Source: Nitrospirota bacterium (GTDB taxonomy: Bacteria; Nitrospirota; Thermodesulfovibrionia; Thermodesulfovibrionales; UBA6898). From it: DNA of 47,781 bases. A program made the translations under genes and the position numbers. The notes below the pieces were generated by a model. That model was not told the origin of the DNA, searched no databases, and saw nothing but the letters and a program-made list of their open reading frames with translations. The stretch lies in assembly GCA_003252075.1 (NCBI GenBank), contig QKDO01000115.1, positions 1-47,781 of the forward strand, given 5' to 3'. Each line of letters opens with the position of its first letter. Position 1 is the stretch's first letter. Of the stretch, positions 16,258 to 21,973 are shown one piece after another.

Positions 16258-16587
16258 ATGTCCGAATATGTTTCTGAAGCTACGTCTGCGGCCTGGGAAA
16301 AAGAGGTGGTTGGGCACAATGGCGTTGTGATGATCGATTTCTGGGCTGTTTGGTGCGGACCCTGCAGGATGATTGCACCGACGGTCGAAGAACTTGCAAA
16401 GGAGTATACGGGAAAAATCAAAGCAATGAAGCTGAACACGGATGAGAATCCTGATATAGCCAGCAGATACAAGATCATGGGGATTCCGACTATCATATTT
16501 TTCAAGAATGGCCAGGAAACTGACCGTATTGTTGGTGCGGTTCCGAAACCACAGTTGAAGGCAAAGATAGACGCTCTGATTGGCTGA
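16258..16587 (+). CDS. trxA: Thioredoxin
   Basis: A 109-residue cytoplasmic thiol reductant with WCGPC at residues 32-36 and the cis-proline motif GIPT. Length, active site and the C-terminal G-x-x-P-K pattern match classic thioredoxin 1. ATG 16258 follows a GAGGAGGT Shine-Dalgarno by 7 bases. The strong promoter suggests abundant expression. It heads a plus-strand run including a TlpA-like lipoprotein and ffh. Confidence 0.95.
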   Translation: MSEYVSEATSAAWEKEVVGHNGVVMIDFWAVWCGPCRMIAPTVEELAKEYTGKIKAMKLNTDENPDIASRYKIMGIPTIIFFKNGQETDRIVGAVPKPQLKAKIDALIG

Positions 16588-16590
16588 TGA

Positions 16591-17139
16591 ATGAGTCTTC
16601 AATTCGGTCATAGCATGGGGAAATCATGTTTTATTGTCTTGGCAGTAGCAGTTAGTCTCATTATCTGCTCTTGCGGTAAAAAAAATGATAAGCCTGGAGC
16701 TGATTCTTCTGTCCAGATCGGCAGCACGGCACCAGACTTTATGCTCAAAGATGTCTCCGGCAAGAATACGACGCTTTCTTCCTACAAGGGAAAGGTCGTT
16801 CTTCTTGAGTTCTGGGCAACATGGTGCCCGCCATGCAAGGCTTCAATACCTGACTTGGTGGAACTCCAAAAGAAATACCGAGATAAAGGATTTACTGTCC
16901 TCGGCGTGTCCATCGATACGGATTCTGACGCGGCGGAGAAAGTTGCCCAATTCGCTTCATCGCATGGCATCACATATCCCGTTCTGATCGCCGACGAGGC
17001 CGTGCCGATGACGTACAATGTAATGAGCATTCCGACAAGCTTCTTGGTCAGCAGGAATGGAACTGTCATTTCTTCCTATAAAGGATATTTCGACGATTAC
17101 AGCAAGAAGGTTTCTGCTGATATCGAAAAGCATCTCTAA
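16591..17139 (+). CDS. TlpA/ResA-like thioredoxin lipoprotein
   Basis: Up to 182 residues. A hydrophobic signal segment ends in a lipobox (IICSC, Cys28), followed by an AhpC/TSA-like thioredoxin fold with WCPPC at residues 78-82 and the IPTSF cis-proline. It would act as a periplasmic thiol reductase anchored to a membrane. The start is uncertain: ATG 16591 is 3 bases after trxA ends, ATG 16615 would give a compact 20-residue signal peptide; neither has a good Shine-Dalgarno. Overlaps ffh by one base (TAATG). Confidence 0.82.
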   Translation: MSLQFGHSMGKSCFIVLAVAVSLIICSCGKKNDKPGADSSVQIGSTAPDFMLKDVSGKNTTLSSYKGKVVLLEFWATWCPPCKASIPDLVELQKKYRDKGFTVLGVSIDTDSDAAEKVAQFASSHGITYPVLIADEAVPMTYNVMSIPTSFLVSRNGTVISSYKGYFDDYSKKVSADIEKHL

Positions 17140-18458
17140 TGTTCGAGAGTATCAGCGAAAAGCTCGAAGCATCTTTAAAGAAGCTGAAGGGCAAAGGTCT
17201 TATCGGCGATGAAGATATTGATGCTGCCCTCAAGGAAGTCAGACTTGCCCTCCTTGAAGCTGATGTTAATTTCAAGGTTGTAAAGAACTTTAGCCAGCGA
17301 ATAAGGGAAAAGGCCCTTGGAAGACAAGTACTGGACAGCCTTACCCCTGGACAGCAGGTCGTTAAGATTGTTCATGAAGAGCTCTGTTCGCTTCTTGGTA
17401 GCTCTAATGCCAGGATCGCGTTGTCACCGAATCCTCCGACCGTTATCATGATGGTAGGCCTTCACGGCTCAGGCAAGACTACAACCTCAGCAAAGCTCGC
17501 CCGGCTCTTCAAGAAGGAAGGCCGGCGCCCTCTTCTTGTTGCATGCGATCTTCAGAGGCCTGCTGCCATAGACCAGTTGATAACGCTTGGAACTCAGATC
17601 GGCATCCCCGTGTATTCAGCAAAAGAGAGTAAAGACCCCATAACCGTCGTTTCAGAAGCCATGAAAAAGGCGAAGACAGGGGCACATGACGTAATGATAG
17701 TCGACACAGCAGGACGTCTGCATGTCGATGACTCCCTCATGGCTGAACTCAAGAGCATAAAGACCGTCTTGGATCCCAAAGAAACCCTTTTCATTGCTGA
17801 TGCGATGACCGGCCAGGATGCGGTGAACATTGCACGCCAGTTCAGTGAGCAGATCGGCATTGACGGTATCGTACTCACGAAAATGGACGGTGATGCAAGG
17901 GGTGGAGCTGCTCTTTCCATCAGGGAGATCACTCAGAAACCAATCAAATTTATCGGTATCGGCGAAAAGATAGATATGCTTGAGCCGTTTCATCCTGATC
18001 GAATAGCATCGCGTATTCTCGGAATGGGCGATATCCTTAGTCTTATTGAACAAGCCCAGAAATCATTTGACCAGAAGGAGACGGAATCCCTTCGGAAGCG
18101 GATACTTGAAGACTCATTTACCTTTGATGACCTAAAGGAACAGCTTAAGAAGATTAGGAATATGGGGCCCTTGGAAAGTATCCTCAGCATGATACCCGGC
18201 ATGAACAAGATAAAAAACATGCAGGTTGATGAGCAAGAGTTTGTAAAGATCGAGGCGATTATCAGCTCTATGACAAAAAAAGAACGTACTAATCATAACA
18301 TCCTAAATGGAAGCAGGAGGAAGCGTATTGCTCTCGGGAGTGGAACGACCGTTGCCGAAGTCAACCGGGTCATCAAACAGTATGTCGAGCTTAAAAAAAT
18401 GCTCAAGATGTTTAGAGGCAAAAAGAACCTCAAATTGCCACGTTCTTTACCCTTCTGA
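17139..18458 (+). CDS. ffh: Signal recognition particle protein Ffh (SRP54)
   Basis: 439 residues. Binds 4.5S RNA and signal sequences and delivers ribosomes to FtsY. N domain (1-85), then the G domain with GLHGSGKTT, DTAGRL, TKMDGDARGG and GEK; C-terminal M domain with methionine-rich helices (MIPGMNKIKNM) and RKRIALGSGTTVAEVNR, the RNA-binding segment. No 4.5S RNA gene is in the window. It ends about 60 bases before rpsP. Confidence 0.95.
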   Translation: MFESISEKLEASLKKLKGKGLIGDEDIDAALKEVRLALLEADVNFKVVKNFSQRIREKALGRQVLDSLTPGQQVVKIVHEELCSLLGSSNARIALSPNPPTVIMMVGLHGSGKTTTSAKLARLFKKEGRRPLLVACDLQRPAAIDQLITLGTQIGIPVYSAKESKDPITVVSEAMKKAKTGAHDVMIVDTAGRLHVDDSLMAELKSIKTVLDPKETLFIADAMTGQDAVNIARQFSEQIGIDGIVLTKMDGDARGGAALSIREITQKPIKFIGIGEKIDMLEPFHPDRIASRILGMGDILSLIEQAQKSFDQKETESLRKRILEDSFTFDDLKEQLKKIRNMGPLESILSMIPGMNKIKNMQVDEQEFVKIEAIISSMTKKERTNHNILNGSRRKRIALGSGTTVAEVNRVIKQYVELKKMLKMFRGKKNLKLPRSLPF

Positions 18459-18518
18459 TCCCTTTACATTCAAGAATAATTTATATTAAACTTTATAACT
18501 TACACGAGGAGGTGTTTT

Positions 18519-18755
18519 TTGGTAAAAATTCGGCTAACAAGACTTGGGTCACACAAAAAACCGTTTTATCGGATGATCGTGACCGACTCAAAAACAAGGA
18601 GAAACGGACCATTCATTGAGATACTCGGCACCTATGATCCGCTAAAAGAGCCTTCCGATATCAAGATAGACATGGAAAGGGCAAAGTTCTGGCTGGGAAA
18701 GGGAGCGCAACCATCGGATACCGCAAAAAGGCTAATGCAAAAAGCCGGTCTCTAA
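18519..18755 (+). CDS. rpsP: 30S ribosomal protein S16
   Basis: 78 residues with the S16 start [17 protein letters not shown], and the [11 protein letters not shown] and [16 protein letters not shown] motifs. The start codon is TTG (18519), only 4 bases after a very strong GAGGAGGTG (18506-18514); no ATG or GTG lies in the right place. First gene of the classic rpsP-khpA-rimM-trmD-rplS-rnhB order. Confidence 0.95.
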
Positions 18756-18786
18756 CATCACTCTCGGCGACCTGGAGGTAGGCAAC

Positions 18787-19017
18787 ATGAAAGAATTGGT
18801 TGAGGCAATGGCAAAAGCTCTTGTTGACAAGCCTGAAGATGTATCTGTAAACGAAGTCGATGGTGAAAAAACGACGGTATATGAGCTGCGCGTTGCAGCG
18901 GGGGATCTCGGCAAGGTAATTGGAAAACAGGGCAAAACTGCACGCGCAATGAGAACTATCCTGAGTGCCTCTGGCACCAAGATCGGCAAACGCTGCGTGC
19001 TTGAGATTCTTGAATAA
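18787..19017 (+). CDS. khpA: KH-domain RNA-binding protein KhpA
   Basis: 76 residues forming a single KH domain with the [16 protein letters not shown] motif (a G-x-x-G loop) that binds single-stranded RNA. Known as KhpA/YlqC, it often sits between rpsP and rimM. ATG 18787 has GGAGG 9 bases upstream. Confidence 0.92.
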
Positions 19018-19031
19018 GAGGAGATCCTTCC

Positions 19032-19538
19032 TTAGAACTGATCAGCGTAGCGCGCATCATTAAGGAACGGGGGGTAAGAGGTGAAGTCAGGGCTCTCCCC
19101 CTTACAGAAGCCTCCATCGCAATTCCCGCCCATATTGACGTACAGATTCTTTTTCCGTCGGGGAAACGTGAGGTTCGAACGATCCAATCCATACACAATG
19201 ACCGAGGTGCTCTCATTATATCGTTCGAAGGGATCAGCAGTCGGGAGGGAGCAGCCTTGCTCCGCAAGGCTGTGATCGAAGTTCAGAAAAAATATCTCCC
19301 CGCATTGCCGAAGAACAAATTCTATCACCATCAGATAATTGGGCTTATCGTTGTTAACTCCGAAGGGAAGAAAATCGGTCAGATTGCTGAGATCATAGAA
19401 ACAGGGAGTAATGATGTATATGTCGTAAAGGGACCAGGCAAGGAATATCTCATCCCTGCTATAAAGGATGTCATTTTGAACATAGACCTCAGTTCCGGTA
19501 CCGTTACCATAGCACCAATGAAGGGTCTTTTGGATTAA
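19032..19538 (+). CDS. rimM: 16S rRNA processing protein RimM with a non-canonical start
   Basis: Assembly factor of the 30S head. The full 168-codon frame shows an N-terminal domain (SVARIIKERGVRGEVRA, FPSGKREV) and a PRC-barrel C-terminal domain (GLIVVNSEGKKIGQIAEI, YLIPAIKDVI). It lies where rimM is expected. No ATG, GTG or TTG exists in frame between the upstream stop (19011) and TTG 19257, which is far too late and would delete the first domain. GAGGAG at 19018-19023 points at TTA 19032 (8 bases on); CTG 19038 is the nearest known rare start. An error in the sequence or a real rare start are both possible. I list 19032 as the likely 5' limit. Confidence 0.75.
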   Translation, partial: LELISVARIIKERGVRGEVRALPLTEASIAIPAHIDVQILFPSGKREVRTIQSIHNDRGALIISFEGISSREGAALLRKAVIEVQKKYLPALPKNKFYHHQIIGLIVVNSEGKKIGQIAEIIETGSNDVYVVKGPGKEYLIPAIKDVILNIDLSSGTVTIAPMKGLLD

Positions 19539-19550
19539 AGTATTTCTGCG

Positions 19551-20303
19551 ATGGCTGAGCTACAGAAAGAATTCAGTGTAATTACGATATTCCCTGACAT
19601 GGTAAAAAGCTATCTCGGGTACAGTATTCTCAAACGGGCGATCGAAAAGGGAATCATCTCGGTTACTGTCCATAATCTCCGCGACTATGTTACTGACAAA
19701 CATAAGACCGTCGATGATTACCCTTACGGAGGAGGACCTGGCATGGTTATGAAACCTGAGCCGTTCTTTCGGATAGTGGAGGATAAATGGCCCCTAAGAG
19801 AATCCTGCCGCATCATTATGCTTTCTCCCCGCGGAAGGGTCTTTACCCAGGACATTGCCCGTGAAGTCGCGGAAGATGCGAGAGAGACTGTTTTCCTCTG
19901 TGGTAGATACGAAGCTATAGACGAGAGGGTTCGGGAATGCCTCATTGATGACGAAATTTCTATCGGAGATTATATTTTGACTGGCGGAGAACTACCAGCA
20001 TTGGTTATAATAGACGCTGCTTCCCGGTTGTTGCCCGATGTGCTGGGTGATGAACAGTCAGCTGAGGATGAATCCTTCAGCATGGGGTTGCTTGATTATC
20101 CGCACTTCACACGCCCTGAAGAGTTCAGACATATGCGTGTACCAAAGGTGCTGCTATCAGGCAACCATGCAGATATAAGGAAGTGGAAGAAGCAGCAGTC
20201 ACTGAAAATAACATTGCTGAAGAGACCTGAACTGCTGAGAACATATATACTCTCTGATGAAGAGAAAGTTCTTATTGAAAAGATAAAGGAGGAGCTGTTA
20301 TGA
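19551..20303 (+). CDS. trmD: tRNA (guanine-N1)-methyltransferase TrmD
   Basis: 250 residues of a SPOUT-family trefoil-knot enzyme that methylates G37 of tRNAs. Motifs: [55 protein letters not shown] and the C-terminal domain with [14 protein letters not shown] 19551 is 12 bases after rimM ends. The last base pairs overlap the rplS start. Confidence 0.96.
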
Positions 20304-20650
20304 ATTTAATTGATGCTATCGAGGAAGGGTTCAAGAAAGATCTTGGCGCTTTTAATGTGGGAGATACGGTAAAGGTCTATGTCAAGGTCGTCGAAGGGGA
20401 CAAGGAGAGAATCCAGCCGTTTCAGGGCGTTGTCATAGGCAGAAAAGGTGGTGGAACGCGCGAAAGTTTTACCGTCAGAAAGATATCCTTTGGCGTCGGC
20501 GTAGAGAGAGTGTTCCCTGTCTGTTCACCCAACATTGACCGGGTGGAACTTATCAAACAGGGAAAAGTTAGAAGGGCAAAGCTTTATTACCTCAGGACCA
20601 AAAAAGGTAAGGCTGCAAAGATAAAGGAAAAAGAATTTTCGGCTCAGTAG
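20300..20650 (+). CDS. rplS: 50S ribosomal protein L19
   Basis: 116 residues with the family motifs [37 protein letters not shown]-like [17 protein letters not shown] and the basic tail [21 protein letters not shown] overlap with trmD (ATG 20300, TGA 20301-20303), with AGGAGC upstream. Confidence 0.97.
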
Positions 20651-20659
20651 CCTCTTTTC

Positions 20660-21280
20660 ATGGACATCTACCGGCATGACGATTCCTTCAGATGCAAGGG
20701 GTATCCGGTAATAGCAGGCATAGATGAAGCCGGACGGGGCCCCATTGCTGGCCCCGTTGTGGCTGCTGCTGTAATTCTTCCCAGCGTACTCAGAATCGAC
20801 GGGCTCAGAGACTCAAAAAAAGTACCGGAAAAGGAACGTACTTTTTTGTTCTGGGAGATCCTTGTCTCTGCCGTGGATATCGGCGTAGGCATGATCGACA
20901 ACGTGGAAATCGACAGAATCAACATTCTCCAGGCAACCATGAATGCAATGAAATATGCCATGGAAGATCTTACCATGACTCCTGATGCCCTCATTGTTGA
21001 TGCCGTCACGATTCCCGAAACGACCATCAAGCAATTTTCCATAGTCAAGGCTGATGCAAAAAGTGCGGCTGTTGCCGCAGCGTCCATCATTGCAAAATAT
21101 GTCAGAGATATGATCATGCTACATTTTGATGGCATATATCCTCAATATAATTTCAAAAAGCATAAGGGATATTGCACAAAAGAACATATGGACAAAATCT
21201 CGCAACATGGTCCATGTGCACTCCATCGGAAATCCTTCAAGCAGGTTATGACGACTGAACTCCCTTTTCCGTTGTCATGA
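20660..21280 (+). CDS. rnhB: Ribonuclease HII
   Basis: 206 residues. Cleaves RNA in RNA-DNA hybrids. The catalytic residues are present: GIDEAGRGPIAGPVVAA (Asp and Glu), then the second Asp in DALIVDAV and a later Asp in KADAKSA/AKYVRD. KHKGYCTKEH and HRKSF close the domain. It starts 9 bases after rplS with no clear Shine-Dalgarno. Its last codons contain the -35 box of the next gene. Confidence 0.95.
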   Translation: MDIYRHDDSFRCKGYPVIAGIDEAGRGPIAGPVVAAAVILPSVLRIDGLRDSKKVPEKERTFLFWEILVSAVDIGVGMIDNVEIDRINILQATMNAMKYAMEDLTMTPDALIVDAVTIPETTIKQFSIVKADAKSAAVAAASIIAKYVRDMIMLHFDGIYPQYNFKKHKGYCTKEHMDKISQHGPCALHRKSFKQVMTTELPFPLS

Positions 21281-21301
21281 GACGTTTTCTTATCATATAA
21301 T
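21272..21301 (+). promoter_or_regulatory. Leaderless promoter of the DtxR-family gene
   Basis: TTGTCA (21272-21277, one mismatch), 18-base spacer, perfect TATAAT (21296-21301), then 6 bases to ATG 21308. Transcription should begin on or next to the start codon; no Shine-Dalgarno exists. Confidence 0.7.
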
Positions 21302-21307
21302 TACGAC

Positions 21308-21973
21308 ATGCCATTAATTACAGACAAAGAACGCCTCGATGAGGCACTCGAGCTTCTCTGGGTACTCAACGAAGATCAACATCATGACATCAGCCATTTT
21401 AAGACGAACTCTGACGATGCTGATACCGAGTCCATAGTTGAAACCTTATTGCACGAAGGCTTGGCATCGATTCTGGGCGCTGAGATTCGTCTTACAGAAA
21501 AGGGCCTCAAGTCGGCCCGCGGTCTGATTCGGAGGCAGAGGCTTGCGGAGAGGCTTTTCACGGATGTGTTTGAAATGCCTGAAGATTCCGTTGTGAACGA
21601 TGCATGCAAAATGGAACATATCCTGAGCGAAGAACTCACTGAGAGCGTTTGCACATTCCTCGGTCACCCGCCGAACTGTCCCCATGGGAAACCAATACCT
21701 CGGGGCGAATGCTGCAAGAAGTTCAAGGTGGAAGTTACCCCCGTTGTGATGAGGCTCTCGGAATTTGAAGTTAGCGCTGCAGGAAAAATAACCTTTATCG
21801 TTCCTTCAGAGGCTTCAAGAATCAGCAAATTGAATTCGCTCGGCATTGCTGCGGGCAGCACGATAAAGTTGATCCAGAAAACGCCGTCGTATGTTGTCCA
21901 GATAGATGAGACAACGGTAGCTCTCGATCCTGAGATAGCCAAAGAGATTTACGTGCGCAAGGTCGTTTCTTGA
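21308..21973 (+). CDS. DtxR/MntR-family metal-dependent regulator with FeoA domain
   Basis: 221 residues. Residues about 1-75 form a winged helix, 75-125 the metal-binding dimer domain with the DtxR signature (RLAERLFTDVFEM, CKMEHILSEELTES, a CPHGKPIPRG end), and 150-221 an FeoA/SH3-like domain (SRISKLNSLGIAAGSTIKL). It should sense Fe(II) or Mn(II) and repress uptake genes. An extra CC pair follows the PIP motif, as in several iron-type homologs. No feo or mnt transporter lies beside it. Its promoter suggests a leaderless mRNA. Confidence 0.85.
   Translation: MPLITDKERLDEALELLWVLNEDQHHDISHFKTNSDDADTESIVETLLHEGLASILGAEIRLTEKGLKSARGLIRRQRLAERLFTDVFEMPEDSVVNDACKMEHILSEELTESVCTFLGHPPNCPHGKPIPRGECCKKFKVEVTPVVMRLSEFEVSAAGKITFIVPSEASRISKLNSLGIAAGSTIKLIQKTPSYVVQIDETTVALDPEIAKEIYVRKVVS

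Follow-up and report, generated by a model that had tools for sequence, protein, structure and literature searches.

To our knowledge, very few bacterial genes depend on initiation at a codon outside the set AUG, GUG and UUG. In Escherichia coli, the gene for the ribosome maturation factor RimM lies in the rpsP-rimM-trmD-rplS operon, where its output is lowered through folding of the mRNA. The closest described systems of obligatory non-canonical initiation are infC, with starts of the AUU class (AUU, AUC or AUA), and Streptomyces sigR, in which a non-NTG codon is found in two versions behind a strong, conserved Shine-Dalgarno (SD) sequence in many species; IF3 represses initiation at both the GTC/GTT starts of sigR and the ATT/ATC starts of infC (PMC5472188).

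The window analysed here, a stretch of 47,781 nucleotides corresponding to contig C13 in a Nitrospirota draft genome of 146 contigs, carries all the features described below on its forward strand. It encodes a RimM protein of 168 amino acids (rimM, 19032..19538), identified through profile match, domain content and predicted fold. The protein scores 129.8 bits against the TIGR02273 profile, above the cut-off of 66.2 for RimM membership, and presents both the RimM N-terminal and the PRC-barrel domains (PF01782, PF24986). The reading frame follows an in-frame TGA (19011-19013) and is open from 19014 to a TAA at 19536-19538, but its first ATG, GTG or TTG is the TTG at 19257, codon 75. The sequence thus bears out the preliminary description of an intact RimM frame lacking canonical codons between that TGA and that TTG. 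In the AlphaFold2 model (pLDDT 89) the first strand spans residues 3-13, counted from the TTA at 19032, and alignment with a solved RimM structure begins at residue 2, which together place the N-terminus of the protein near 19032. The upstream neighbour, identified by a match to NF001748, is khpA, encoding a KH-domain protein (18787..19017) and starting with ATG.

Upstream of this N-terminus lies the SD sequence GAGGAG (19018..19023, with AGGAG at 19019-19023), 8 nt before the TTA codon (UUA, 19032..19034). It had been described as well spaced from this codon, and the distance from AGGAG to the start is the same as that observed for infC in the same family. Its duplex with the 16S 3' end (-9.1 kcal/mol; tail GGATCACCTCCTTT, read in one family member, G012) ranks in the top 2% of within-gene pieces. 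On the basis of SD spacing, protein N-terminus and comparison with relatives, UUA is predicted as the likeliest initiation codon. The CTG at 19038, earlier put forward as the only rare start nearby, is indeed present, but it is accompanied in frame by other near-cognate codons (ATA 19014, ATC 19041 and ATC 19056), and its column contains CTG, CTC, CAC, CGT, CAT and other triplets in relatives, making it an unconserved candidate.

A comparative analysis was carried out on 27 genomes of the family, of which 26 encode rimM, with a readable 5' end in 25; these 25 genes and one gene from family f12 make up the set of 26 used throughout. A conventional start at the corresponding position was looked for within the family, and no canonical codon was detected at the rimM N-terminus in any of the 25 family genes, spanning 10 genera, or in the f12 genome. 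In 21 of the 26 genes no canonical codon is present in frame between the upstream stop and codon 7, and in L003, L004, L005, L010 and L016 canonical codons occur only upstream, at or before the SD, and are not conserved. The close relatives G001-G004 carry TTA at the identical position. The suggestion that a TTG might have been misread as TTA is hence rejected, since 25 independently assembled family genes and the f12 gene all lack a canonical start. As for infC and sigR, the absence of ATG, GTG and TTG starts is conserved among relatives (26/26). In the RimM tree the family forms a monophyletic group (support 99/97), and ATG, GTG or TTG codons are found near the expected position of rimM in families f3, f7, f13, f14, f15, f16 and f19.

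Other genes in these genomes present conventional starts. The start of rpsP is TTG in all 26 rimM loci, khpA starts with ATG or GTG in the 20 family members that possess it, trmD has a canonical start in 25/25 genes, and the gene for the 30S assembly factor RbfA has its ATG or GTG in one shared alignment column in 25/25. The loss of the start codon is therefore specific to rimM. The infC genes of these genomes start with AUC or AUA after AGGAGGTGAAAAC, and so serve as a positive control for both method and spacing. An altered initiator tRNA or a change in the genetic code was considered and rejected: a pattern search based on the GGG/CCC initiator stem did not find a second initiator tRNA with another anticodon, returning tRNA genes with CAU (initiator) or GUA (Tyr) anticodons only, and other genes keep canonical starts. 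TAT-bearing matches to the initiator stem (e.g. G000:C44) were discarded, as they are not tRNAs.

With the start site of each of the 26 genes assigned by SD and N-terminus, the codons at this site are UUA (12 genes), AUA (3), AUU (2), AUC (1), UCA (2) and UUU (2), with CUA, GUA, GCC and ACA seen once each; the assignments of GCC (L002) and ACA (L010) are uncertain. The codon class thus varies among members. The UUA of the window falls outside the AUU/AUC/AUA (AUH) class of infC, and all AUH start sites are confined to genera g3 and g5. An SD at ordinary spacing, usually 5-9 nt ahead of the non-canonical codon, is present in the window and in most relatives, with poor or no SD, or no sensible start candidate, in L002, L005, L010, L016 and L033. 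The mean SD pairing energy is -5.5 kcal/mol at rimM, compared with -2.4 kcal/mol for within-gene pieces, and reaches -7.3 at UUA sites versus -3.0 at AUH sites (Mann-Whitney 0.0004, uncorrected for phylogeny). This trade-off between SD strength and codon quality is as expected if a strong SD compensated for a weak codon.

The boundary of the coding region was also apparent from patterns of substitution. In comparisons within genera, pN/pS falls from 0.89 (codons -4 to -1) and 0.80 (codons 0-1) to 0.55 (codons 2-4) and 0.30 (codons 5-8), and a third-position excess is visible from codon 2 on. The coding signature hence starts at about codon 1-2, indicating that the rimM frame is in use from roughly the TTA onwards. 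Around this boundary, the window lacks ATG, GTG and TTG in all three frames between 19024 and 19067 (up to about codon 11), as revealed by triplet counts. Over the 26 genes, these triplets occur in any frame at 0.50 per 48 nt in codons -4 to 11, compared with 1.82 over the remainder of rimM, a depletion not equalled in any of 20000 resamplings. Most start-site codons are one substitution short of a canonical start, and none has been converted. The persistence of these one-step codons and the triplet depletion suggest that a canonical start is harmful here, beyond being merely absent. The pairing of weak codons with strong SDs, again together with the depletion in every frame, likewise indicates that canonical starts at rimM look to be selected against.

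Taken together, these data make it reasonably probable that rimM is translated from an SD-spaced non-canonical codon, UUA at 19032 in the window and UUA, AUA, AUU or AUC in most relatives. The earlier proposal of non-standard initiation in the manner of infC thus gains indirect support from the SD and its spacing, the coding boundary, the AUH codons of two genera and the counter-selection of canonical starts. Several other readings of the locus were weighed. Initiation at AUC 19056 (codon 8), yielding a RimM shorter by about eight residues, would make use of a position that is AUA, AUU or AUC (Ile) in 26/26 genes while varying in outgroups, and that belongs to the infC class; it is nonetheless very unlikely, as no SD lies at the proper distance, codons 2-7 are under coding constraint, the solved RimM aligns from residue 2, and much of the first beta strand in the predicted fold (residues 3-13) would be deleted. 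Starts at either codon 5 or codon 8 were accordingly rejected on the coding signature and the first strand. It is more improbable still that rimM is decaying or barely needed and that its start was lost neutrally: many relatives of the same order, even with near-complete genomes, return no RimM match, but the frame is intact in 26/26 genes from 10 genera, the SD has been kept, and pN/pS values lie at about 0.2-0.6 over the length of rimM. A programmed frameshift or bypass from khpA or rpsP, producing a fused protein, could account for the missing start in the RimM frame, with the khpA frame ending 14 nt upstream in the window. This is equally improbable, for neither a constant upstream gene nor a constant frame relation or shift site was found: khpA precedes rimM in 20 genes, with rpsP directly, or a gap, in six, no common slippery or landing codon was seen, and the upstream stop falls in frames 0, 1 and 2 across species, so that such a fusion would not be conserved.

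Two further explanations, both of them unlikely, would relax the need for a specific codon altogether. Ribosomes leaving khpA or rpsP might terminate and reinitiate a short distance away under relaxed codon requirements, in which case the identity of the codon would not matter. The upstream stop is 13-36 nt away in most members, and in L004, L006 and L007 the rimM TTA overlaps the terminal TAA of a short ORF; the finding that IF3 reduces re-initiation where an SD is absent (PMC2268962) was also counted in favour of this explanation. The upstream stop, however, is constant neither in distance nor in frame, whereas the SD and the N-terminus are kept, and khpA is absent in six members, with gaps of up to 109 nt after rpsP. 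Alternatively, entry could be independent of the start codon, with the SD, a downstream hairpin and an invariant A placing the ribosome so that any triplet can serve as start. This would accommodate the UCA, GCC and ACA codons, which do not resemble AUG, found at the site in some species, and it draws further on the A of codon 5, which never varies and whose spacing is fixed relative to the hairpin rather than to the start, and on a hairpin stronger than its counterpart in relatives that have normal starts. On the other hand, 18 of the 26 sites are UUA or AUH, a non-random choice, and covariation in the hairpin is slight; we know of no bacterial precedent for such a mode of entry.

The invariant A occupies the third position of codon 5 (19049) in 26/26 genes, even though the amino acid encoded varies among V, I, L and A. 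No other third position is invariant among the 172 codon columns compared, and outgroups present C (13), A (8), T (7) or G (2) at 19049. Avoidance of start triplets was considered as its source and accounts for it only in part (the product, taken with one gene per lineage, is about 1e-7). The hairpin, delineated by fold energy and conservation, lies within the coding sequence at codons 12-23 (19069..19101) and pairs a G-run (19069-19074) with a C-run (19097-19101). Its mean fold energy is -17.9 in the 26 genes versus -12.3 in outgroups with normal starts, and its third positions are conserved. Covariation is slight, the stem comprising only five GGGGG/CCCC pairs that are mostly invariant, and the structure is hence suggested but unproven. 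The spacing between the invariant A and the hairpin is fixed, whereas that relative to the start codon is not. No consensus fold was found for the stretch from the SD to codon 13, and no Rfam match above the gathering score was returned for positions 16500-21500. Codon 18 (19086-19088) is GTC in the window and ATG in 11/26 relatives, preceded in several of them by the SD-like AAGGGGAGAA; it may constitute an internal start.

Under the favoured reading, in which rimM is translated from the SD-spaced non-canonical codon, the strong SD would recruit the 30S subunit to a region from which AUG, GUG and UUG have been cleared in every frame, and fMet-tRNA(CAU) would initiate inefficiently on the mismatched codon. 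RimM would consequently be made in small amounts from a ribosomal-protein operon. By analogy with infC and sigR, IF3 would be expected to repress initiation at rimM. Loss of RimM in E. coli raises IF3 and causes its retention on immature 30S subunits (PMC13246957), which makes a feedback linked to IF3 plausible: a shortage of RimM would leave immature 30S subunits holding IF3, less free IF3 could then remain to discriminate between starts, and RimM synthesis could rise. We infer in this manner a low, possibly IF3-sensitive synthesis of RimM. An argument against this mechanism is that UUA matches the CAU anticodon at one position only, and UCA, GCC and ACA at none; with few or no anticodon pairs, initiation at UUA and similar codons is expected to be very weak. 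In an in vitro survey of IF3 function, only Watson-Crick pairs were tolerated at positions 1 and 2 (PMC10158994). Codon-independent entry therefore retains some plausibility, UUA being a very poor start for the CAU initiator. In its boldest form, which we consider quite doubtful, ribosomes would begin rimM without any codon pairing to the initiator, positioned by the SD, the start-free stretch, the invariant A and the hairpin, and the arrangement would act as a sensor of 30S maturation.

Like infC, rimM belongs to the ribosome and initiation machinery and combines a conserved non-canonical start with a good SD, and in two genera it has exactly the AUA, AUU or AUC codons of infC. It departs from infC in that the codon is mostly UUA and varies among species, in the additional downstream hairpin and invariant A, and in that IF3 feedback is known for infC and proposed only by analogy for rimM. 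The resemblance to sigR lies in a non-NTG codon maintained behind a strong SD across many species, with differences in gene and function; rimM presents more codon types over a deeper divergence. The E. coli operon shares both the gene context and the presumed need for low RimM from a ribosomal-protein mRNA, but its rimM has an ordinary start codon. No description of a non-canonical rimM start was found in the literature searched, which was largely that available without subscription. Judged from these comparisons, rimM joins the few genes with an obligatory non-canonical start, as a variant located in a gene for ribosome assembly. If confirmed, IF3-type start discrimination would extend from an initiation factor to ribosome assembly, and this would suggest that the quality of the 30S subunit feeds back directly on the factor that matures it. 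Gene finders restricted to NTG starts will miss or truncate this important gene across a bacterial family.

Several additional observations were made in the course of the analysis. The UUG start of rpsP (TTG at 18519-18521 in the window) is unusually fixed across the 26 loci. Between rpsP and rimM, khpA is missing in L004, L006 and L007 (G002, G004 and G003), where a conserved 10-codon ORF, MK[LS]S[GC]KEIL[PS]*, lies upstream of rimM with its TAA overlapping the rimM TTA. About ten genomes of the family (G000, G001, G005, G007, G010, G013, G015, G020, G022 and G024) encode two infC genes, located in G000 at C77:5847-6344 and C123:10378-10863 (L071 and L095); both kinds apparently use starts of the AUA/AUC type, and a second IF3 could affect start-codon discrimination. 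Elsewhere in the order, no RimM match above the cut-off was obtained in f2, f4, f5, f8-f11 and part of f13, including many near-complete genomes, and about half of the order seems, from these searches, either to have lost RimM or to carry a highly divergent version of it. In the f6 genomes G043 and G031 (L097 and L098), rimM starts one base past the khpA stop (AAT AGA), and the sole canonical codon in its frame, a TTG inside or overlapping the end of khpA, lacks an SD, which suggests that the start of rimM may be non-canonical in f6 as well.
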